The position numbers were made by a program, and so were the translations under genes. The notes under the pieces were generated by a model, which was given only the letters and a program-made list of their open reading frames with translations, made no database searches and was not told the DNA's origin. A stretch of DNA of 35,015 nt from Deltaproteobacteria bacterium (lineage in GTDB: Bacteria; Desulfobacterota; Dissulfuribacteria; Dissulfuribacterales; UBA3076): assembly GCA_027004715.1 (NCBI GenBank), contig JALTHG010000023.1, forward strand, positions 1 to 35,015, given 5' to 3'. Of this stretch, positions 10,976 through 24,811 are shown piece by piece; the stretch's first letter is position 1; every line of letters starts with the position of its first letter.

Positions 10976-11725
10976 ATGTCTAAGGGGCCTGAAACCTATA
11001 TTGATCGATCCAGACAGTTAAGAGATGAGGACACTTTTTGTTTTTCCTGTAGACCAGATAGGAGCTGTTTTACTGCATGCTGTTATGACTTGAATCTCTT
11101 ACTCATGCCTTATGATATACTCCGGATCAAGAACCGCCTGGGCATGAAATCAGGCGATTTTATAAAACAGTATACCAACATATATGTTGGACAGGGCTCA
11201 GGGCTCCCTGTAATATCGCTCAAGATGGACAAGTTCCACTTCAACTGTCCATTTTTGGAAAAGGGAAAGGGATGTAAGATCTATGAAGATCGACCTGGTG
11301 CATGCCGCACTTATCCCCTTGTCAGGATGGCCTTGCGAAGCAGAGACAGAGAGGGAGTAGAGGAATTTTATTATATCATTAAGGAACCTGGCTGTGAAGG
11401 ATTCGAGAATGGAAAGAGGTGGACTGTCAGAGAGTGGATAGATAGTCAGGGTATTGCTCCCTATAATGAGATGAACGACATCTTTGGAGAGCTCTTGCAG
11501 GCAAAGACCGAGCTAGGCATACCCTATCTCAATGCAGACCAGATCAATACCTTTTATCTGGGGTGCTATGATATAGATGCCTTTCGCCAATATTTCCTGG
11601 AAGGCCCCTGCCTTGAACGCTGTATGGAGTCTGAAGACCTGATAGAGAGAGTCTCCCAGGACGAAGTTGCCCTGCTCAAATATGGCATGCGTTGGGTCAA
11701 GAAAAAACTCTTTCAGGTAGATTAA
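10976..11725 (+). CDS. YkgJ family cysteine cluster protein
   Basis: This 249-residue protein has the YkgJ (CxxCxxxCC-type) cysteine cluster: CFSCRPDRSCFTACC near residues 21-36, then CPFLEKGKGCKIYEDRPGAC (about 88-107), followed by RTYPL. The conserved cysteines are expected to bind zinc or an iron-sulfur cluster. Extra cysteines occur at the C-terminus (CLERCM). The function of the family is unknown. AAGGAG lies 9 bases before ATG 10976. It sits between hemW and purD with short spacers, so it is probably co-transcribed. Confidence 0.85.
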   Translation: MSKGPETYIDRSRQLRDEDTFCFSCRPDRSCFTACCYDLNLLLMPYDILRIKNRLGMKSGDFIKQYTNIYVGQGSGLPVISLKMDKFHFNCPFLEKGKGCKIYEDRPGACRTYPLVRMALRSRDREGVEEFYYIIKEPGCEGFENGKRWTVREWIDSQGIAPYNEMNDIFGELLQAKTELGIPYLNADQINTFYLGCYDIDAFRQYFLEGPCLERCMESEDLIERVSQDEVALLKYGMRWVKKKLFQVD

Positions 11726-11742
11726 GGGGAGGGTTAGAGATT

Positions 11743-13524
11743 ATGGACAAAAAGAAGGTATTAGTTATAGGCTCTGGAGGACGTGAGCATGCACTCTGCT
11801 GGAAACTGTCATCTAGTCCAGAGGTCTCTGAGGTATTCTGTGCACCTGGAAATGCCGGTATTGCCCAACATGCCGTCTGTGTGCACTTGAGGCCTTCTGA
11901 CATCGATGACCTTATATCTTATGTAAAGAGGGAAGGGATTGACCTCACAGTAGTAGGCCCTGAGGCCCCTCTGGCACAGGGCATTGCAGACAGGTTCAGG
12001 GCAGAAGGCCTTGCGCTATTTGGACCCTCCAGGGCGGCTGCCAGGATTGAGGCAAGCAAGGTATTTACCAAGGACCTGCTCACCGAGGCCGGCATCCCTA
12101 CAGGGTCTTATAGGGTCTTTACTGAACCAGTATCTGCCTTTGACTTTATCAAAGATGAAGTCGGAGTACCTGTGGTATTAAAGGCAGATGGGTTGGCAGC
12201 AGGCAAGGGAGTAATCGTTGCCCATAACCTGGAGGAGGCAAAAGAGGCAATAGAGCTTATCCTCTGCAAAAAGGTATTTGGTGAGGCAGGCAATCGCCTG
12301 ATAGTAGAAGAATTTATTGCTGGAGAAGAGGCATCCTTTATGGTTGTAACAGATGGTAAGACAGTCCTTCCCCTTGCCACGTCACAAGATCACAAGCCAA
12401 TATTTGATGGGGACAGGGGACCCAATACCGGCGGCATGGGTGCCTATTCACCTGCCCCAGTGATAGACAGGGTCTTGTTTGACAATATCATGGAGACCAT
12501 CATGAGGCCTGCGGTAGAGGCCATGTCCAGGGCAGGGAGGCCCTATCAGGGTGTACTCTATGGTGGTCTGATGATCAGACATGGCCGTCCAAAGGTCCTG
12601 GAATTCAACTGTCGCTTTGGCGATCCTGAGGCCCAACCGATCCTGATGCGCCTCCAGACAGACCTGATGGAGATATTTGAGGCAACCATCGAGGGGAGAC
12701 TGAATGAAGTGGAGCTTGTCTGGGATCCCAGGCCCGCTGTCTGTGTGGTCTTGGCCTCCAGGGGCTATCCTGGAAAATACGAGACAGGAAAGGTCATCCA
12801 TGGTCTAGAAGGGGTATCTGAGATGGAAGACGTAATGGTCTTCCACGCAGGAACAGCCAGGGATGGAGATCAATTCGTAACCTCTGGGGGGAGGGTCCTG
12901 GGAGTGACGGCACTTGGAGAGACTATCCCCAAGGCAATAGGGCTTGCCTATGAGGCAGCTGGAAAGATCTCCTGGACAGGTATGTACTATAGGAAAGATA
13001 TTGGCCAAAAGGCCCTCAGACATGGATCTGTCACAGGCACCTCACCCAGGGTGGGTATTGTCATAGGGAGCCCTGGTGATAGAGAGGTAATGCAGACCTG
13101 TAAGGATGTGCTGGATGCATTTGGGGTCCCCTGTGAGATGACGATCAGGTCTGCCCATCGCTCTCCAGGGCTCACTGAATCCTATGCCAGAGAGGCAGAG
13201 GCCAGGGGTATAAAGGTCTTGATAGCCGGCGCCGGGATGGCTGCACACCTGGCCGGTACGCTGGCTGCACACACCATTTTACCCGTGATAGGTGTACCGA
13301 TGAATAACTCGGCCCTGAGCGGACTCGACTCCCTGTTCTCTATGGCCCAGATGCCTTCAGGTGTCCCTGTTGCAACTATGGCAATAGGCAAGGCCGGGGC
13401 AAAGAATGCCGCCATGCTCGCCCTCCAGATCCTTGCGCTCCAGGACCAAGTCCTGGCAGAGAAGCTGAAAAGGTACAGAGAGGCCCAGGTGAGAGAGATA
13501 GAGGCACTCAATAGAGGACTTTGA
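11743..13524 (+). CDS. purD-purE: fused PurD-PurE (GAR synthetase / N5-CAIR mutase)
   Basis: This single 593-residue frame holds two purine enzymes. Residues 1 to about 424 are phosphoribosylamine-glycine ligase, with VLVIGSGGREHALCWKL, the ATP-grasp strand LKADGLAAGKGVIVA, GPNTGGMGAYSPAPV and EFNCRFGDPEAQP. After a linker of about ten residues (RHGSVTGTS), residues 436-593 are a complete class I PurE with VGIVIGSPGD, the SAHRSP catalytic loop and AGAGMAAHLAGTLAAHT. Class I PurE needs the carboxylate made by PurK, which is not here. I start at ATG 11743, preceded by AAGGGGAGGG. The two steps are not consecutive in the pathway, so the fusion more likely ensures equal amounts than channelling. 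Confidence 0.93.
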   Translation: MDKKKVLVIGSGGREHALCWKLSSSPEVSEVFCAPGNAGIAQHAVCVHLRPSDIDDLISYVKREGIDLTVVGPEAPLAQGIADRFRAEGLALFGPSRAAARIEASKVFTKDLLTEAGIPTGSYRVFTEPVSAFDFIKDEVGVPVVLKADGLAAGKGVIVAHNLEEAKEAIELILCKKVFGEAGNRLIVEEFIAGEEASFMVVTDGKTVLPLATSQDHKPIFDGDRGPNTGGMGAYSPAPVIDRVLFDNIMETIMRPAVEAMSRAGRPYQGVLYGGLMIRHGRPKVLEFNCRFGDPEAQPILMRLQTDLMEIFEATIEGRLNEVELVWDPRPAVCVVLASRGYPGKYETGKVIHGLEGVSEMEDVMVFHAGTARDGDQFVTSGGRVLGVTALGETIPKAIGLAYEAAGKISWTGMYYRKDIGQKALRHGSVTGTSPRVGIVIGSPGDREVMQTCKDVLDAFGVPCEMTIRSAHRSPGLTESYAREAEARGIKVLIAGAGMAAHLAGTLAAHTILPVIGVPMNNSALSGLDSLFSMAQMPSGVPVATMAIGKAGAKNAAMLALQILALQDQVLAEKLKRYREAQVREIEALNRGL

Positions 13525-15665: not shown

Positions 15666-15678
15666 CACTTATGTCAAG
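15661..15678. other. palindrome spanning two convergent stop codons
   Basis: CTTGACA (15661-15667), a four-base loop and TGTCAAG (15672-15678) form a perfect 7-bp stem. The TGA of the plus-strand ATP-grasp gene and the TGA of the minus-strand gene both lie in it. There is no T tract on either side, so a terminator function is possible but not supported. Confidence 0.5.
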
Positions 15679-17371
15679 AGTGTAGCCCTGACCCCAACTG
15701 CCCAAGTAGATATAAGAGGCTTTCCTTTTTCCCGGCAACCCGTGGGTCCTGCCATACGACCCCCAAAATTATCTGATCTTGGACCTCGGCAAGACCGCAT
15801 ATATGTGCACCTACAGGCGGCGTGACTGCCTTAAGGACATATTCTCCAGCTGTCCACCCAAGCGACATCAGGCTGTCTCCTGCCAATGAAGGCCCCCTCT
15901 CAGGCACTTCTGAAAAGAGTAGCTCTGGTAGGCCATTTCTGTCTATATCTAGGGAGACCAATTGCTTTGAGAGATTGTCTCTGGACAGCCCTGGAGAGAT
16001 AGGACCTGGAGAGGACCAAACCAGTTCCCCGTTTTCATAGACAAGGAGCTTGCCTGTCCTACCGACTGTACAGAGTTCAGGGACGCCATCCCCATTTGTA
16101 TCTGACCATATCGACCTGATCACAGAAAAGCCTCTTGGTTCCTTTATCCGCTCTATGTAACTGATGCCCTTTTGACTGGCCTGCATCAGATAGATCTTTG
16201 CCCCAAACATGGCATTGACATCAAAACTCTGCCCCAGAAAGGACTCTCTTCTCCTGTCTCCATCTCGGTCCATAAAGGCAAGCCAGAGATTAATGTCGGT
16301 CTCTACAGCGCGGAGGCTGGAATGTTGATATCTCAAGAGCATGGAACGCATGCCTGCTCCATCTATCAAGACATTTACTGCTATCCATCCACCAGGACCG
16401 GATGCAGAGAAGTTGACCGGGCGCCCAGGCCCGGAAAATCTATAGCCTACAGGTCTACCTTGATTCCTATATGGGCTGACATAGATAGCTGATGGCAAGA
16501 GATAGACTATCTCAGGCCTTCCATCTCCATCTAGATCGAGGATGTCTATCTGGATAGTATCTTCCAGAAGACGACCTATAAGGTGTGCGTTGGCCAGATT
16601 GAATTCCCTTATATTTGTCTTGAATTTCCACCTCTTGGCCTTTCCTGCCAGGGCCCCTTTGAGATCTCTGCCAGGCAGGCCCCCTCCTGACCTAAAGGCA
16701 GGATATTTATGTAAGAGGCCCAGATCAGGACCATAGACCTTCAGGCCATCAGGCTCTAAGGCAAAGAGGAGATCAATGCCCAGGGTCTTCATTGACCTGG
16801 AGTCCAGGATATCAGAGGGGACATCAGATGGATTCAGCCAGATAAGGTCTGGAAAGAGTTCCTCTAATTTCCCGAGTAATTTTTTCCCTGAGTCAGATTT
16901 GGATCTGGAGACAAAGGCCGCTGTCATATCGCTATATCTCGTAGCTGGCTCTCCAACCCTTAAAGGGGCCTTAGTGCTCACTACCCTGCATGTAGACCTG
17001 TTATCTTCAGTCCGTATTACTCGTATGGTAGCTATAGGTCTCTTGAGATAACCGATTACCTCTCTGGTCTTGGAAAGCACTGGAGAACCTCTGCCATATA
17101 TCTCAAATAGGTCTCCTCTATTTACACCGTCGGCCTTCCCGGTATCTAATATCAGGGAATGTCCTGATACCCCCAGGACCACAGAGGAGACCGGAGAGAA
17201 GTCTCTTATGATCTGATCATAAAAGTATATAGGATATGACTTCGAATAGACTGAGGCTGTCTGTAAAAAGACACAGAAAATTGCCAACAGAAGGACTGTC
17301 AGGGAATAAAAAGACCTATCCGAACATAGTCTACAGATAGCCTGTACACATGAGATATATTTTGACAACAC
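15674..17371 (-). CDS. secreted FG-GAP/VCBS-like repeat protein
   Basis: This 565-residue protein is unrecognised as a whole. An N-terminal hydrophobic stretch (LTVLLLAIFCVFLQTAS, about residues 24-40) looks like a signal peptide or anchor. A region of about 45-150 has SH3/flagellar-assembly-like features (LILDTGKADGVNRGDLFEIY). The C-terminal half contains at least four calcium-loop-like repeats: DLDGDGRPEIVY, DRDGDRRRESFL, DTNGDGVPELC and DIDRNGLPELLF, as in FG-GAP/VCBS beta-propellers. It is probably periplasmic or surface exposed. The start is GTG 17371, only a few bases from the dsrC terminator and without a clear binding site, so the true start is uncertain. Confidence 0.7.
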   Translation of the reverse strand: MLSKYISCVQAICRLCSDRSFYSLTVLLLAIFCVFLQTASVYSKSYPIYFYDQIIRDFSPVSSVVLGVSGHSLILDTGKADGVNRGDLFEIYGRGSPVLSKTREVIGYLKRPIATIRVIRTEDNRSTCRVVSTKAPLRVGEPATRYSDMTAAFVSRSKSDSGKKLLGKLEELFPDLIWLNPSDVPSDILDSRSMKTLGIDLLFALEPDGLKVYGPDLGLLHKYPAFRSGGGLPGRDLKGALAGKAKRWKFKTNIREFNLANAHLIGRLLEDTIQIDILDLDGDGRPEIVYLLPSAIYVSPYRNQGRPVGYRFSGPGRPVNFSASGPGGWIAVNVLIDGAGMRSMLLRYQHSSLRAVETDINLWLAFMDRDGDRRRESFLGQSFDVNAMFGAKIYLMQASQKGISYIERIKEPRGFSVIRSIWSDTNGDGVPELCTVGRTGKLLVYENGELVWSSPGPISPGLSRDNLSKQLVSLDIDRNGLPELLFSEVPERGPSLAGDSLMSLGWTAGEYVLKAVTPPVGAHICGLAEVQDQIILGVVWQDPRVAGKKESLLYLLGQLGSGLHS

Positions 17372-17426: not shown

Positions 17427-17747
17427 CTACACGCAACCAGTTGGCTTTGGGAGACCTGCCATCTTACAGGCCCCCTTACCAGGTCCAGATGGGAAAAGCT
17501 CATAAATCTTCTTCAATGGGAAGCCAGTGGTCTTACCAAGGATACGGACCATAGGGGCGATGCCATTTTTCTTGTAATAGTCCTGAAGTACATTGACGAC
17601 CTTCCAGTGCTCTTCAGTCAGTTCCTCGATGCCTTCTATTGTCTTTACATAGTCCACCCATGTCCGATCCCAAGCATCTATACCTCCCAAGAGAAACCCA
17701 TCCTCATCGACTTCATATTTTTTCCCACCAAATTCTACCTCTGCCAT
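17427..17747 (-). CDS. dsrC: DsrC sulfur-carrier protein
   Basis: DsrC carries sulfur as a trisulfide between its two C-terminal cysteines during dissimilatory sulfite reduction or sulfur oxidation, working with DsrAB and the DsrMKJOP complex. The 106-residue protein has the family start (KKYEVDEDGFL), the helix block LTEEHWKVVNVLQDYY and the C-terminal arm CKMAGLPKPTGCV, with Cys94 and Cys105 exactly ten residues apart. Both redox cysteines are present, which separates true DsrC from TusE and other RspA-type proteins with one. AAGGAGG sits 6 bases before ATG. A dedicated promoter and terminator imply strong single-gene expression. No other dsr gene is in the window. Confidence 0.93.
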   Translation of the reverse strand: MAEVEFGGKKYEVDEDGFLLGGIDAWDRTWVDYVKTIEGIEELTEEHWKVVNVLQDYYKKNGIAPMVRILGKTTGFPLKKIYELFPSGPGKGACKMAGLPKPTGCV

Positions 17748-17817
17748 ACCGTCCTCCTTTTGGAATTAAATTACAATTAGAAATAACAGAAATAATCTTA
17801 TATCTAAATTCTATTAT

Positions 17818-17846
17818 TAGATACTATAACACAAAATTTTTGTCAA
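17818..17846 (-). promoter_or_regulatory. candidate dsrC promoter
   Basis: On the minus strand a perfect TTGACA (17846-17841) precedes TATCTA (17823-17818) at a 17-base spacing; TATAGT (17828-17823) is a better -10 box but only 12 bases away. The region between here and the dsrC start is very A+T-rich, and the gene has a near-perfect Shine-Dalgarno. Which -10 is used cannot be told by eye. Confidence 0.5.
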
Positions 17847-17943
17847 GAAACCTCCACACCTTTCATATGCAGGTCCCTTATGGAGAAATTTGCTTTAGAT
17901 TATAGTGAGTTACACCCCATATCTATAGACAATCATTCTGATA

Positions 17944-19659
17944 TCAGGACTGGAGTTCTTGCATCCTGTCTCTGGCCCAGGTGAGCCCAGGGTCTAATTC
18001 AAGTGCCATCTTGTACCATCTAATTGCGGCCCTGTTCATGCCCAGTTTTCCGAGATTGCTGGCTATATTTGCATAGTCTACAGCAGATCCAGGATCTATA
18101 GATATTGCCTGCTCAAAGGCATCTATTGCCTTGAGGTGTTCTCCAATACGATAAAAACAATACCCCAAGAGATTGTATATCTCCTTGAGTCCTGGATTCA
18201 GGTCTCTGGCCTGTTTGAGTTCATCTATTGCCCTTGGAAAGTCCTCTATCTCTTTATAGCATACCCCTTTCTGACAATGGATGCTTGCCAGTTCTTCAGC
18301 GACAGGGTTGAGGTCAAGTGCCCTGTTATACCAGTCAAGGGCCTCTCTGTAGTCCCCAAGACGCTCATATACGTGCCCAGTATAGAAGGCCACATAAAAG
18401 CGTCCTGGATAGAGGTCCTCAATATCAGTCAGGATAGAAAGGGCCTGCTGGGGATCATTGATCGAGTCTGCCAGACGGGCACAGTGAAAGGGAACATCCA
18501 GACCCCTGGTATGATCTCTAAAGTGATTTCCAGGGACTACTGCATATACTACAGGGATAGCCAGGTCTGGATGGGTGATGTCTACCAGGTATGCATTTAG
18601 CCCTACTCCTGCCAGGGCCTTACATATCCCTTCTACCTCGAGCCTGAAATTTCTTGAGCTACAACTGGGCATTGCATCTATAGGGACCCTGCTGGATCCA
18701 TCCAGCACATATGAGGCCTCGTCCAGACCAGAGAACTTTGGGAGTCCGCTCTCTATATATCTGCCTTCTCTGTCAAAGTCCCCTGCCAGTTGTGCCACTT
18801 CTGTAATGGCACGTATTGCCGCACGGACAGGATCAGGTGCCGTGCCGGCTGTGTAGACTATCTCACTCCTGTCTGGAAAGGTCGATGGGTCCCAGGCAAT
18901 GGCCCCGACTGTCGGGATGGCGAGATCAAGAGAAAAGTCCTTCAGCACTAAGTGGATAGACAGGCGTTCAAATCTGTCCAGGAGCCCCCTTAAGACCGGG
19001 TCTCTGATAGAATCGAGTTCTATACTCGGAGTATGCAGCTCTTTATAGGTAATGACAGAACATACGTGACGTTCAACTACTTCTGAGAGGGCCTGAACTG
19101 CTGCCTCTTCCAGAGAATTCCCTGAGGCCGAACCATTATATCTATTTAGGGGCCAAAACCACGAGAGGGGAAGCCAGAACTCCCTCCCATCTACTGGGCG
19201 GTAGGCCTTTACCCAGTCAAGAGGTAGGCCTCTTATCAGGTCCCATGCCCTCTCTTCTTCCTGGTCTTTGACGTGTATGGCCTTAAGCATGTCTTGCAGA
19301 GGCAATACATCACCATCAAGGTCTGTGGCCCTCCCGGTATGAGGGATTCCATCTTGCAAGAAGTGAAACAGGCTGAAGCGTTCTATCAGCTCCATCACGG
19401 CACTGGTCTCGGCCTGGACACTGGTGACGCCCTTGCCCATCTGGCTGAATTTACCAGTCAGGTGGCCTGCAGACGGACTATACCTACTCAGATACACCGG
19501 TATCCCTAGACGTCCCCTGTCTACCCGCCTGGTATCCTGAAGGATGGGTATACTGAGCTGATCAAGGCGACTGCGTATCCATTTCAGGGTCTCATCTGGT
19601 GCCCTTACCTTGTCAAAGGCAATACCTGATTCCTTGAAGCTGTCTCTCAAAAAGACCAT
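17944..19659 (-). CDS. YcaO domain protein with C-terminal TPR repeats
   Basis: Residues 1 to about 420 form a YcaO domain, the ATP-using enzyme that makes thioamides or azolines on peptide backbones. Its nucleotide-binding signatures are all present: AETSAVMELIERFS (about 82-95), AAVQALSEVVERHV (about 186-199) and AAIRAITEVAQLAG. The proline-rich C-terminal tail of azoline-forming YcaOs is absent. Residues about 435-571 are four tetratricopeptide repeats (for example GDYREALDWYNRALDLNP), a protein-binding platform. No partner TfuA, dehydrogenase or leader-bearing peptide is nearby. It lies between a DUF5335-like gene and dsrC; in my experience this architecture recurs in sulfate-reducing lineages, but its substrate is unknown. 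Confidence 0.87.
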   Translation of the reverse strand: MVFLRDSFKESGIAFDKVRAPDETLKWIRSRLDQLSIPILQDTRRVDRGRLGIPVYLSRYSPSAGHLTGKFSQMGKGVTSVQAETSAVMELIERFSLFHFLQDGIPHTGRATDLDGDVLPLQDMLKAIHVKDQEEERAWDLIRGLPLDWVKAYRPVDGREFWLPLSWFWPLNRYNGSASGNSLEEAAVQALSEVVERHVCSVITYKELHTPSIELDSIRDPVLRGLLDRFERLSIHLVLKDFSLDLAIPTVGAIAWDPSTFPDRSEIVYTAGTAPDPVRAAIRAITEVAQLAGDFDREGRYIESGLPKFSGLDEASYVLDGSSRVPIDAMPSCSSRNFRLEVEGICKALAGVGLNAYLVDITHPDLAIPVVYAVVPGNHFRDHTRGLDVPFHCARLADSINDPQQALSILTDIEDLYPGRFYVAFYTGHVYERLGDYREALDWYNRALDLNPVAEELASIHCQKGVCYKEIEDFPRAIDELKQARDLNPGLKEIYNLLGYCFYRIGEHLKAIDAFEQAISIDPGSAVDYANIASNLGKLGMNRAAIRWYKMALELDPGLTWARDRMQELQS

Positions 19660-19679
19660 GGTCTATATCTGGATAGATG

Positions 19680-20168
19680 CTAGTCTATAAAGGGTGTAGC
19701 CACCTCTTCTATGAGCCTTTCGGCCTCATACCAGTCTTTCTGGTCCTCACCGTGTATAGTACCCCGCATCTTATAGAGGTTATATGCCAACATAGCTGTC
19801 CATTCGCACTTTGCAGGCTCCTCATCCAGGAAGATCACATAGGCCATGTCTTCCTCTGGTGCCCCCTTGATCTGCACCCCCCTTACTGGATTACAGGCCT
19901 CTGTATCCCTGATGAGATAGATTGCCCTGGGTACCTCTACTCTATGGGCCAGGTGTGCAGGGTTTTTTGGATCCATACCTCCAAAATAGAACTCCATCCT
20001 GCGCCTGTCCTCGTTATAACACAGACCAACCAGGGGCAGACCAGGCTCTCCAATCACTGATTTTTTACCCAGGCTCAGCGTGGCCTTCCTGAACTGATTC
20101 TGTCTATTAAAGTCCTTTACAAAGGTTGGCCACTCGTACTTTAATATTCGGGTCTTTTTCACAGCCAT
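19680..20168 (-). CDS. DUF5335/DUF2934-like protein
   Basis: This is a 162-residue protein of unknown function. Residues 1-110 resemble DUF5335, a small beta domain (LKYEWPTFVKDFN, PLVGLCYNEDRRRMEFYFGG, AHRVEVPRAIYLI). The tail, residues 120-158, resembles DUF2934 (AYNLYKMRGTIHGEDQKDWY followed by EAERLIEE). Both assignments are from memory and moderate. GGAGGTGA lies 5 bases before ATG, a strong site. It precedes the YcaO gene by 20 bases and is probably its operon partner, making it a candidate adaptor or substrate for that enzyme. Confidence 0.65.
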   Translation of the reverse strand: MAVKKTRILKYEWPTFVKDFNRQNQFRKATLSLGKKSVIGEPGLPLVGLCYNEDRRRMEFYFGGMDPKNPAHLAHRVEVPRAIYLIRDTEACNPVRGVQIKGAPEEDMAYVIFLDEEPAKCEWTAMLAYNLYKMRGTIHGEDQKDWYEAERLIEEVATPFID

Positions 20169-20245
20169 CTCGTCACCTCCAATAGGCTATATGTAATTAT
20201 ATCTTACTATTCAGATATCTTGTCAAATCAAAAATATATGTGGAT

Positions 20246-20407: not shown

Positions 20408-22438
20408 CTAAGAGACAGGATCATAGTGAGAAAATACCATGGTGAAGGTACCTCTGCCCTGGGTTATAGACCTGAGGGCAGTAGAATAGCCAAACATCTT
20501 GGAAAGCGGTACGACCGCCTTGATTACCTGAACTGGTCCCCTGGGCTCGATCTCTTTGATCTTCCCATGGCGGCTGTTTAGGTCTCCTATCACTTCTCCT
20601 ATAAAGGATTTAGGGGCCAGGACCTCCAGACGCATAGTAGGTTCAAGGAGTACTGGATCGGCCTGCTCACAGGCCCTTGTCAGTCCCATAGAGGCCGCAG
20701 CCCTAAAGGCCACATCTGTAGACAGGCCTTCCTCAAAGATGGCATCTTCCAATACTACTTCGACATCTATCATGGGAAAGCCCTTTAACACACCGCTTTC
20801 GAGTCTCTGCCTCAGAGTCTCCAGGATGAGTTCCTCATAGCCTTCTGGCAGTTTCTCAGGTCCAAGCCGGCTGATCACACGATTGGTCCCTTCTCCCTTT
20901 ATGGGAGAGACACTGAGGCCCAGGCTGGCTACCTGACGCCCTCCACCTATCTCCCGATCAAATCGTTCCTCTAAGGTCACAGATTTCTGTATGGTCTCTC
21001 GATACACTACCTGGGGTCTGCCCACTGTCACAGAGGCATTGAATTCTCTGAGCAGCCTATGGACCAGGACCTCCAGATGCAGCTCTCCCATGCCTGAAAT
21101 GACTGTCTGTCCTGTCTCCTCATCGAATCTGACCTGAAAGCTTGGGTCTTCTTCAGACAGCTTATTGAGGGCCATATCTATCTTTTCCTGGTCTCCTATG
21201 GTCTTTGGCTCAACGGCCACAGAGATCACTGGATGATATGTCTCAATAGGCTCAAGGAGTATAGGGTGGTCTGGATCACAGAGGGTGTCTCCTGTTGCCG
21301 TATACTTGAGACCCATAACGGCCACGATATTACCTGCCCTGGCCTCACTGATTCTCTTCCTCTTGTTTGCGTGCATCTCTAAGATCCTGGAGGCCCTTTC
21401 CATACACTTCTTCCCAGTATTCCAGGCCTCATCTCCTGTCTTTAAGACCCCGGAGTATACACGCAGATAGGTCATCTTACGTCCATGATCCATCTGGACC
21501 TTGAAGGCAAGGGCCGCAAGTGGTGCACTGTCTCGACTGGGTCGTTCCTCAATGTCTCCTGTCTCAGGACTCGTGCCTGTGACAGGCGGTATGTCCAGTG
21601 GACTGGGTAGATACCTGGCTATGCCATCCAATAGTGGCTGTACCCCTTTATTTCTGAGGGCCGAGCCACAGTATACCGGTACATACTGGAGCCCAATACA
21701 GGCACGCCTGATGGCCTCATGTATCTCTCTCTCATCTATGGGCCTCTCATCCAGGTATTTCTCCATTATACTATCGTCTGTCTCAGAGAGTGCCTCAAGC
21801 AGCTCATCTCTGGCAGCAGAGACCTCGTCTCTATGCCCTTCAGGTACAGGACGCTCCTCGAACTCTCTGCCCTGACTCGATTCATCCCATACAATCCACT
21901 TCTCTCTTATTACATCAAAGACCCCCTGGAAGGACTGCTCAGAGCCAAATGGAAGGGTCAGGACAATGGGATGGGCCCCAAGGCGCTCTCTTATCTGTTC
22001 AACAGTCCCCCAGAAGTCTGCCCCCAGTCGATCCATCTTATTAATAAAGACGATCTTAGGGATTTTATACCTATCTGCCTGGTGCCATACCGTCTCTGAC
22101 TGCGCCTCAACTCCACCTACTGCACAAAATACCCCTATTGCCCCGTCCAATACCCTCAGGGACCTCTCTACCTCTATTGTAAAGTCTACATGTCCAGGGG
22201 TATCAATTATATGCATTTCTCTGCCCAGCCAGTAACAGGTGATAACTGCAGAGGTGATGGTGATTCCTCTCTCCTGTTCCTCTGGCATCCAGTCCATAGT
22301 GGCCTGGCCATTATGGACCTCTCCCATCTTGTGTGTTTTTCCAGTATAGTAGAGGATGCGTTCAGTGAGAGTGGTCTTCCCTGCATCTATGTGGGCAATT
22401 ATGCCTATGTTGCGGATACACTTAATTCTTTTATTCAC
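20408..22438 (-). CDS. fusA: elongation factor G paralogue (EF-G2 type)
   Basis: This 676-residue translational GTPase has the full EF-G domain set: P-loop AHIDAGKTTLTERIL, switch II DTPGHVDF, NKMD, domain III/IV and the C-terminal FGYSTALRSITQGRGTFTM. It is shorter than standard EF-G (about 690) and lies away from rpsL, rpsG and tuf, so it is probably a second copy. The domain IV tip, SYHDVDSSE in E. coli with the His important for translocation, reads IFEEGLSTD here, with Glu569 at the His position. The GTG 22438 start lacks a strong binding site. A role other than routine translocation, such as ribosome recycling or stress, is inferred. Confidence 0.85.
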   Translation of the reverse strand: MNKRIKCIRNIGIIAHIDAGKTTLTERILYYTGKTHKMGEVHNGQATMDWMPEEQERGITITSAVITCYWLGREMHIIDTPGHVDFTIEVERSLRVLDGAIGVFCAVGGVEAQSETVWHQADRYKIPKIVFINKMDRLGADFWGTVEQIRERLGAHPIVLTLPFGSEQSFQGVFDVIREKWIVWDESSQGREFEERPVPEGHRDEVSAARDELLEALSETDDSIMEKYLDERPIDEREIHEAIRRACIGLQYVPVYCGSALRNKGVQPLLDGIARYLPSPLDIPPVTGTSPETGDIEERPSRDSAPLAALAFKVQMDHGRKMTYLRVYSGVLKTGDEAWNTGKKCMERASRILEMHANKRKRISEARAGNIVAVMGLKYTATGDTLCDPDHPILLEPIETYHPVISVAVEPKTIGDQEKIDMALNKLSEEDPSFQVRFDEETGQTVISGMGELHLEVLVHRLLREFNASVTVGRPQVVYRETIQKSVTLEERFDREIGGGRQVASLGLSVSPIKGEGTNRVISRLGPEKLPEGYEELILETLRQRLESGVLKGFPMIDVEVVLEDAIFEEGLSTDVAFRAAASMGLTRACEQADPVLLEPTMRLEVLAPKSFIGEVIGDLNSRHGKIKEIEPRGPVQVIKAVVPLSKMFGYSTALRSITQGRGTFTMVFSHYDPVS

Positions 22439-22628: not shown

Positions 22629-23186
22629 ATGGAGATAACAGTGAATAGTATGGGGAAGATTGTACTTGATGCAAGGGAGATGGACTGGGCCCTTACCAGG
22701 ATGTCTCATGAGATCATTGAGAAAAATAAGGGAGTAAGAGAGCTTGTGCTCATTGGTATCAGGACAGGTGGTGTCCCCCTGGCTGAGCGTCTACAACAGC
22801 GAATTGCCTCTATAGAGGGAGTTATGATCCCTGTTGGGATCCTGGACATCACCCTCTATAGAGATGACTGGAGTACCCTGAGCCAGCACCCCATAATCAA
22901 AAAGACCGACATCTTATTCTCTATAGATAACAAGAGTATAATATTGGTAGATGATGTTATCTATACCGGACGTACGGTCAGGGCCGCCCTGGATGCCCTG
23001 ATCGACTTCGGTAGACCCAAGAAGATCCAACTGGCCGTCCTGATAGACAGGGGCAGGAGAGAACTTCCCATCCAGCCCGATTTTGTCGGACTCTCTGTAA
23101 AGACCTCGGCCGATGAACGTATAGATGTGTTTTTGACAGAGATCGTAGGGAGGGATGAGGTAGTTATGACAAAGAAGGCCGGCTAA
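22629..23186 (+). CDS. pyrR: bifunctional pyr regulator / uracil phosphoribosyltransferase PyrR
   Basis: PyrR binds pyrimidine operon RNA in response to UMP and often also converts uracil and PRPP to UMP. The 185-residue protein has the phosphoribosyltransferase loop ILVDDVIYTGRTVRAALDAL (about residues 99-118) and the family segments LIGIRTGGVPLAERL and LAVLIDRGRRELPIQPDFVG. There is no Shine-Dalgarno before ATG 22629; ATG 22650 is an alternative. The stop overlaps the next start (TAATG), beginning a chain of coupled genes. No pyrimidine biosynthesis gene is in the window. Confidence 0.9.
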   Translation: MEITVNSMGKIVLDAREMDWALTRMSHEIIEKNKGVRELVLIGIRTGGVPLAERLQQRIASIEGVMIPVGILDITLYRDDWSTLSQHPIIKKTDILFSIDNKSIILVDDVIYTGRTVRAALDALIDFGRPKKIQLAVLIDRGRRELPIQPDFVGLSVKTSADERIDVFLTEIVGRDEVVMTKKAG

Positions 23187-24811
23187 TGCCTGCTATCCAA
23201 AGGATTACCTGGATATCTGAGACAGCCTCTACCAATGACCTTGCCAGAGACGACTTCCTGAAAAAGGGGAGGCTATGGCACTGTTTTGTTGCCGATTCCC
23301 AGACCAGGGGCAGGGGCAGAATGGGTAGGAGCTGGGCATCCCCACCTGGTACTGGTCTCTATCTCTCGCTTGCTGTCCCAAGGCCAGGGATCCTTGAGCC
23401 CTGGCTATCCCTTGTCTGTGCTATTGCCACATCCAGGGCCATCCAGTCTGTTGTCACCAGATCTTATTGTCCCAAGGGGATCTCTATCAAGATCAAGTGG
23501 CCAAATGACCTGTATATAGGCGACAAAAAGATAGCAGGCATACTCTGCGAGCTGGCAGGGGACCACAGGGGAGGGTCTGCCTGGATAATCGGCATAGGTA
23601 TAAATGTCAATACACCAGAGGAGGGCTTTCCAGAGGAACTTCGGGCAAGGGCTGGTTCTATATCGAGTGTTATAGGTGCCCATGTGTCCAGAAAGGCCCT
23701 GCTCGATGAAGTCCTTGTCTGTCTATCTTTCTGGCTGGGCAGGCTCTACAGTGGAGATCTGGCTGGAGTGTGCAGCTCTCTCGAAGGGGCAGAGATCACG
23801 GGCATAGATCCACCTGGTCCACTACTGGGCATTACCATGGGGTGTCCTGCAGGGATCGGTCCTGAGATCATCATAAAGGCATTTGTATCTAATCCAGAAT
23901 GGTCTATGGCCCCGCGGTCAGTGGTTCTAGGAGATATAGGAGTACTTAAGAGGGCATCAGAGGTGCTTGGAATAGATGTCCCCATCAGGCCATGGTCACC
24001 TGGCGATCCCTCTCTCAGGCCTGGGCTCTATACATATCCAGTGACTGAGCTTGATGCTGTAGATATCCCATGGGGAAAGACAGGTCCCATTACCGGAAAG
24101 GCATCCTTTGAATACATTGTAAGGGCAGTAGAACTGTGCCAGGATGGGATATTATCCGGCATTGTGACCGCTCCGATAGACAGACTGGGGCTCAGGCAGG
24201 CAGGTATTCCATACTCAGGGCATACTGAGGTCCTGGCCCACATGACTGCCACAGAGAGATATGCAGTGATGCTGGCAGGTGACAGGCTTCGGGTGACCTT
24301 TGTGACCATGCACTGCCCCTTGAGAGATGTGGCAGCCCAGATAGATAGCAAAAAGATACTGGAGATCATCTGCCTTACCGATTCCTCTCTAAAGAGAGAC
24401 TTTGCCATAAAAGACCCTGAGATTGCAGTGGCTGCCCTGAATCCAGATGCAGGTGGGCCTGGGATGTCTGGGATAGAAGAAAGAGAGGTCATAGCACCTG
24501 CAATAGAGGCGGCAAGGAGACTGGGAATAAGGGTCACAGGGCCCTATCCTGCAGACGGCCTGTTCTACCGGACGGCTAATGGAGAGTTTGATGCAGTGGT
24601 CTGTCAATACCAGGACCAGGGCCTGATCCCGTTTAAACTCCTCCATTTCAGAGAGGGAGTAGGTATAACCATAGGTCTCCCAATAGTCAGGACTTCAGTA
24701 GATCATGGGACTGCATACGATATAGCCGGTACTGGAAGGGCAGACTGTGCCAGCCTTGAGGCAGCAGTCAACCTTGCTGCAGAGATGGTGGCAAACAGAC
24801 AGACTTGCTGA
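23186..24811 (+). CDS. birA-pdxA: fused biotin-protein ligase (BirA) and PdxA-like dehydrogenase
   Basis: Residues 1 to about 205 are a biotin protein ligase catalytic domain: SETASTNDLA, GRGRMGRSWASPPGTGLYLS, KIKWPNDLY and KKIAGILCEL. It has no N-terminal DNA-binding domain, and the usual C-terminal SH3-like domain is missing. From residue 213 a full-length PdxA follows (329 residues, the E. coli length): GITMGCPAGIGPEII, SGHTEVLAHM, HCPLRDVA, TSVDHGTAYDIAGTG. PdxA oxidises 4-phosphohydroxythreonine for pyridoxal phosphate synthesis. Two motifs have changed: NPHAGE is NPDAGG (Asp421), and the metal-binding His of YHDQ is Gln476. Activity of the second half is therefore uncertain. The frame is open throughout and coupled to genes on both sides. 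Confidence 0.9.
   Translation: MPAIQRITWISETASTNDLARDDFLKKGRLWHCFVADSQTRGRGRMGRSWASPPGTGLYLSLAVPRPGILEPWLSLVCAIATSRAIQSVVTRSYCPKGISIKIKWPNDLYIGDKKIAGILCELAGDHRGGSAWIIGIGINVNTPEEGFPEELRARAGSISSVIGAHVSRKALLDEVLVCLSFWLGRLYSGDLAGVCSSLEGAEITGIDPPGPLLGITMGCPAGIGPEIIIKAFVSNPEWSMAPRSVVLGDIGVLKRASEVLGIDVPIRPWSPGDPSLRPGLYTYPVTELDAVDIPWGKTGPITGKASFEYIVRAVELCQDGILSGIVTAPIDRLGLRQAGIPYSGHTEVLAHMTATERYAVMLAGDRLRVTFVTMHCPLRDVAAQIDSKKILEIICLTDSSLKRDFAIKDPEIAVAALNPDAGGPGMSGIEEREVIAPAIEAARRLGIRVTGPYPADGLFYRTANGEFDAVVCQYQDQGLIPFKLLHFREGVGITIGLPIVRTSVDHGTAYDIAGTGRADCASLEAAVNLAAEMVANRQTC

Follow-up and report, generated by a model that had tools for sequence, protein, structure and literature searches.

The 35,015-nucleotide stretch analysed here (contig JALTHG010000023.1 of a Deltaproteobacteria bacterium, assembly GCA_027004715.1), referred to below as the window, encodes a 571-aa protein, designated YcaO-TPR (17944–19659, minus strand), in which a YcaO domain is followed by tetratricopeptide repeats (TPR) and whose gene lies beside dsrC. 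The results suggest, with a probability of about 0.5, that YcaO-TPR is an ATP-driven enzyme of sulfate reducers that thioamidates the backbone of an intact protein and is tied to DsrC or to other sulfur carriers; its product may well be a sulfur modification, as yet undiscovered, of some cell protein. The protein itself is not new, its family including Desulfovibrio DVU2210; the new part is the linkage to sulfur genes, and a literature search found no paper joining YcaO with DsrC.

Profile searches clearly place YcaO-TPR in the YcaO superfamily (PF02624, 233 bits against a gathering score of 25.7), with the Pfam envelope covering residues 74–377 (18529–19440, minus strand). Several TPR families match residues 423–558, and the profile matches together with the predicted model delimit a TPR domain at about residues 402–569 (17953–18456, minus strand). 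The published ATP-binding motif Sx6-7Ex3Qx3ExxER, as quoted in PMC7774982, is matched exactly by SASGNSLEEAAVQALSEVVER at residues 177–197 (19069–19131, minus strand), and the protein ends in ...QELQS, with no PxPxP tail, in agreement with the earlier note, which had described a YcaO enzyme with an intact ATP motif, fused to TPRs and devoid of the azoline-type tail. The top-scoring NCBIfam YcaO model is that of McrA-glycine thioamidation (TIGR03266, 135 bits, cut-off 365), and the models of azoline-forming cyclodehydratases (TIGR03604, 101 bits, cut-off 219) and of the Escherichia coli YcaO equivalog (NF040716, 45 bits, cut-off 700) are likewise matched below their cut-offs; judged by these scores, YcaO-TPR belongs outside all named equivalogs, including the McrA and uL16 groups. 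In the family alignment (A1; 21 sequences of 40–83% identity), the window protein aligns co-linearly, with a full-length YcaO domain and C-terminal TPR. The last two repeats are conserved like the catalytic domain (66% versus 64% mean agreement with the commonest residue), as expected if the repeats hold a constant partner.

AlphaFold modelling of YcaO-TPR gave a pLDDT of 91 and a pTM of 0.86. A PDB fold search with this model found Mj-YcaO as the best match (TM 0.72–0.75 by target length), followed by E. coli YcaO, cyanobactin heterocyclases and Mk-YcaO, with identities of 25–27%. On these structural and contextual grounds, YcaO-TPR may act like a thioamidating YcaO. TfuA was not found among the scanned neighbour proteins, the whole genome not having been searched for it, and no conserved short co-directional open reading frame (ORF) resembling a precursor of a ribosomally synthesised and post-translationally modified peptide was seen among neighbours of at least 80 aa, shorter ORFs not having been compared across loci. 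A PHROGs search gave no useful matches.

The minus-strand gene order in the window is EF-G-type GTPase, SP162 (a 162-aa protein), YcaO-TPR, dsrC and an FG-GAP-repeat protein, all ORFs having been confirmed at their positions. The dsrC gene (17427–17747, minus strand, 106 aa) begins 196 bases after the YcaO-TPR stop and has its own ribosome-binding site, recognised from sequence (GGAGG, 17753–17757, minus strand); it perhaps has a promoter of its own, and a single operon with YcaO-TPR is no more than possible. As the earlier note had stated, the adjoining gene encodes a genuine DsrC, with matches above the cut-off (PF04358, 117 bits; TIGR03342, 108 bits against 53.5), both conserved C-terminal cysteines (...ACKMAGLPKPTGCV) and close similarity to Desulfovibrio vulgaris DsrC (2V4J). 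The whole block recurs across the order of the window genome (the home order), so the arrangement is not due to chance: dsrC follows YcaO-TPR by 88–488 bases in 24 of 31 home-order genomes, and in several of the remaining genomes the two lie on separate contigs.

Outside the home order, 14 of 113 genomes, from 3 of 31 families, have dsrC next to YcaO-TPR (in the same direction and no more than 1.5 kb away), against a chance expectation of about 0.014 families. In all eight genomes of family f26 (Desulfarculaceae), dsrC is situated 146–160 bases upstream of YcaO-TPR; the Desulfarculaceae loci L124 and L157 have it in the same position, the L157 dsrC sequence being the same as that of genome G235. 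In family f50, whose members carry an ATP motif very similar to the DVU2210 motif printed in PMC7774982, dsrC lies 193–422 bases downstream in 5 of 12 genomes; in f97, the downstream distance is 1.1 kb and includes a radical-SAM gene, and one more dsrC/YcaO-TPR locus (L107) was found in Desulfobacterales. On the YcaO-TPR gene tree, the dsrC-adjacent loci occupy four separated places, with dsrC upstream in one and downstream in three. In two genomes of family f39, the YcaO near dsrC is a different, short one: dsrC precedes it by about 500 bases, and a ComEA-like (helix-hairpin-helix) gene separates the two.

Other sulfur-handling genes are found beside YcaO-TPR in other lineages. The sacrificial sulfur transferase LarE (TIGR00268, 321 bits) is encoded directly upstream of YcaO-TPR in 10 loci; family f48 has the gene run HcyBio (PF01837, homocysteine sulfur incorporation), NIL-ferredoxin, YcaO-TPR and Thi4; and NIL-ferredoxin adjoins YcaO-TPR in families f39 and f72, the next gene being MnmA in f72 and a PP-loop gene resembling it in f39. 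On the gene tree, the loci with adjacent NIL-ferredoxin fall into two clades that lie apart from each other. It is mainly because unrelated sulfur-handling genes replace one another beside YcaO-TPR that sulfur insertion is favoured here, and the LarE, HcyS/NIL-ferredoxin/Thi4 and MnmA neighbours make such a role likelier than a single shared locus would. In 11 loci, an RNase D-like gene (named from its sequence) takes the place of the sulfur neighbour; a JAB/desampylase-like neighbour is present in f83, and in f50 a Methyltransf_16 protein gene overlaps the YcaO start.

The survey of the phylum was based on an even draw of 395 genomes, of which 150 contain YcaO-TPR, 190 contain dsrA and 146 contain both; the YcaO-TPR genomes nearly always carry DsrC as well. 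All 41 families with YcaO-TPR have dsrA, and 14 families have dsrA without YcaO-TPR. The near restriction of YcaO-TPR to dsr-bearing genomes agrees with the earlier note, in which co-occurrence with dsrAB was named as a check and a wide spread beyond such lineages as grounds for rejection, but the co-occurrence is largely that of one clade. The rpoB tree contains one large clade that never has YcaO-TPR and in which dsrA is scattered, and the very low Fisher probability (8e-62) treats genomes as independent and was discarded as a strong statistic. DsrD was also considered as a marker for YcaO-TPR among dsrA genomes and rejected as partial, families f49, f64, f80 and f82 having ordinary DsrD without YcaO-TPR. 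Among the YcaO-TPR genomes, dsrA is missing from four, namely two incomplete assemblies, one home-order member and G331. The latter, a 100%-complete f50 genome (locus L230), has neither dsrA nor DsrD but retains YcaO-TPR next to dsrC, plus another dsrC, which indicates that the pair can outlive DsrAB.

The mechanism that would unite these observations is as follows: the TPR arm would hold an intact cell protein, one of whose backbone amides the YcaO domain would activate with ATP, and sulfur would take the place of the amide oxygen, as in the McrA and uL16 YcaO enzymes. The protein that handles the sulfur would differ between lineages, being DsrC in some and LarE, HcyS/NIL-ferredoxin or MnmA in others. 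Such lineage-varying handling is proposed as the reason for the presence of these genes beside YcaO-TPR. Several facts weigh against it. At most YcaO-TPR loci, no sulfur gene was recognised alongside, and the LarE adjacency is limited to a single clade; 44 dsrA-bearing genomes lack YcaO-TPR, and after kinship correction on an rpoB tree that included dsrA-negative genomes, the dsrA association amounts to about 2.6 independent pairs in which YcaO-TPR follows dsrA, none opposed, and is not significant. In a D. vulgaris strain lacking only DVU2210, sulfate respiration proceeds at its normal rate (PMC7774982), so the function of YcaO-TPR cannot be essential for sulfite reduction. The DsrC-linked role suggested in the earlier note is thus upheld in part: at the level of gene association it is better supported than by one locus, through dsrC adjacency in four gene-tree clades and sulfur neighbours elsewhere, and it is weakened in that the association is mostly that of one clade and SP162 is no core component. 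The role of the YcaO-TPR of sulfate reducers, so far known for a molybdate phenotype alone, and the sulfur source of TfuA-less YcaO enzymes both become directly testable; concrete candidates for the latter are DsrC (a relative of TusE), LarE, HcyS and MnmA.

The alternative that survives best, although it is considered rather unlikely, makes DsrC the substrate: YcaO-TPR would modify the C-terminal arm, e.g., by thioamidation of the GPGKGAC glycine or of the one preceding the last cysteine, and so tune this part of DsrC, which inserts into DsrAB and is involved in forming the trisulfide. The arm of the window DsrC (GPGKGACKMAGLPKPTGCV, 17430–17486, minus strand) is of the GPG-M version that accompanies YcaO-TPR: GPGKGACKM was found in all YcaO-TPR genomes whose canonical DsrC was read, and also in D. 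vulgaris DsrC (2V4J), whereas the dsrA genomes without YcaO-TPR have GPAKGACK[LVI], in one case GPAKGGCKL. The exceptions, G077, G225 and G256, lie inside the YcaO-TPR clade and may represent recent losses or gaps. The arm of the Pyrobaculum-type DsrC (1JI8) is GPAHGACKV. The GPG/GPA covariation was rejected as independent evidence: with the GPA genomes grouped in a single clade of the rpoB tree, the difference counts as one event, which proves nothing by itself and serves as a lead only.

DsrC as the substrate would also accord with the recurrent dsrC adjacency and with the thioamidation of McrA, which likewise falls on a glycine (PMC5589413). In addition, both DsrC and DVU2210 are high-scoring mutated genes in D. 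vulgaris/methanogen evolution lines, in which the DsrC mutations are function-modulating and not loss-of-function (PMC8319347), a finding that also favours the main reading. Normal sulfate respiration without DVU2210 speaks against it, as does the match of arm residues being one event, and it leaves the LarE, HcyS and MnmA neighbours unexplained. The more specific proposal of a thioamide placed in the DsrC arm (GPGKGACKM...PTGCV) by YcaO-TPR, with lineage-specific sulfur donors encoded alongside, would amount to a backbone modification not yet reported for the central sulfur carrier in dissimilatory sulfate reduction and is regarded as unlikely; if DsrC were indeed the target, a protein at the core of the global sulfur cycle would carry a modification so far overlooked.

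Divergent DsrC-like proteins were encountered as well. The genomes of family f28 encode, besides a canonical DsrC elsewhere, a second, divergent DsrC (locus L238, 5068–5421) with the arm TSERAICKIAGLPKPTGCI; its gene is on the other strand than YcaO-TPR, 2.7 kb away. Frames of 216–264 aa with two tandem DsrC-like domains occur in G365 (contig C20), G316 (C5), G096 (C1) and G126 (C110 and C316); the matches of these domains end before the end of the DsrC model.

A further reading, judged improbable, is that YcaO-TPR is the counterpart of E. coli YcaO and thioamidates uL16 or another translation protein, the sulfur genes being near since the reaction needs sulfide. E. coli YcaO, which has a C-terminal TPR domain as the window protein does, thioamidates intact uL16 without TfuA; its sulfur source is unknown, and the authors of that 2026 study suspect primary-metabolism proteins of being involved in sulfur supply (PMC13063428). 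The fold search also returned E. coli YcaO, and the translation-gene neighbours (EF-G in the home order, MnmA in f72) would fit such a target. The E. coli match, however, has a TM of about 0.5 over the full length and a root-mean-square deviation of 12 Å, the PDB sequence match covers part of the domain with 29 bits, the equivalog model is matched with 45 bits against 700, and the isoelectric point of YcaO-TPR proteins is 5.0–6.1 versus 4.4 reported for E. coli YcaO. A universal uL16 would, moreover, leave the near restriction to dsr-bearing genomes unexplained.

It appears very improbable that the conserved gene order has no functional meaning and that YcaO-TPR and the dsr genes were simply co-inherited by one large clade. 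The presence of YcaO-TPR does follow one clade, and the dsrA association loses significance on correction; what this account does not cover is the dsrC adjacency in differing arrangements across separate gene-tree clades, the NIL-ferredoxin adjacency that is seen twice and the three families with adjacent dsrC, far above the chance expectation. The least credible possibility is that no backbone is modified and that the YcaO domain spends ATP on activating some small oxyanion or other molecule. Such an activation of molybdate has been proposed for D. vulgaris, where the DVU2210 deletion combined with delta-sat confers molybdate resistance and an S195R exchange in the ATP motif has the same effect as the deletion. 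The authors themselves call this a hypothesis and allow for an indirect effect, DVU2210 in E. coli confers no molybdate sensitivity (PMC7774982), and no characterised YcaO in the cited literature acts on oxyanions.

Among the remaining genes of the block, the one encoding SP162 (19680–20168, minus strand) has a strong ribosome-binding site, ggaggtgacg (20171–20180, minus strand), 2 bases ahead of its ATG. The assignment of this small protein to the DUF5335/DUF2934 type in the earlier note was borne out, with DUF2934 matched at 30 bits and DUF5335 matched in 24 of 26 orthologues, the window protein itself not being among them; a fold search found no PDB match at E ≤ 0.001. SP162 lies 15–263 bases ahead of YcaO-TPR in 31 of the 33 genomes that have it, and in G016 it adjoins dsrC, with YcaO on a different contig. 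At some loci it is absent and EF-G directly precedes YcaO-TPR, with a 4-base overlap in L075. It was dismissed as a core partner, being without a match in G012, G013, G017, G020, G021 and other YcaO-TPR-bearing members of the order and being linked to YcaO-TPR in one order only among the genomes sampled. The more constant partner is dsrC, and SP162 is an order-level addition.

The EF-G-type GTPase gene (20408–22438, minus strand) is the upstream member of the block, and the FG-GAP-repeat protein gene downstream of dsrC (15674–17371, minus strand) is conserved in the home order and fast-evolving; an ATP-grasp RimK-like gene and a PEBP gene are convergent to the block. Two fused ORFs were noted elsewhere in the window: one (23186–24811, plus strand) joins a biotin/lipoate-ligase (BPL) domain with PdxA, which stands alone in relatives such as L067, and another, of 610 aa (11692–13524, plus strand), joins PurD (GARS) with a PurE-type AIR carboxylase. 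The genome (a 1.44 Mb assembly of 100 contigs, 93% complete) encodes dsrA and DsrD elsewhere, as well as two more YcaO genes, L001 1264–2724, whose 486-aa product has a short TPR-like tail, and L003 1321–2631, with a product of 436 aa.

A comparison with known systems places YcaO-TPR nearest to DVU2210, with which it shares the two-domain architecture and the type of ATP motif, although the literature found gives DVU2210 no phenotype other than that with molybdate and does not connect it with DsrC; in the f50 genome G119, with its Methyltransf_16 overlap, dsrC is far from YcaO-TPR. The archaeal McrA-glycine enzymes, which act on an intact protein, provide the closest solved folds (Mj-YcaO, 6PE3/6PEU; Mk-YcaO, 6CI7) and the best NCBIfam model (TIGR03266), but they lack TPR, and neither McrA nor TfuA adjoins the window YcaO-TPR. 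E. coli YcaO resembles it in the combination of a YcaO domain with a C-terminal TPR and probably in acting on an intact protein; it works without TfuA, which was not seen among the scanned neighbours of YcaO-TPR either, and differs in belonging to another sequence subfamily, in being more acidic and in the arrangement of domains. As to the TusE/DsrC sulfur relay, for which no YcaO partner is described in the papers found, the window dsrC encodes a full member with both cysteines.

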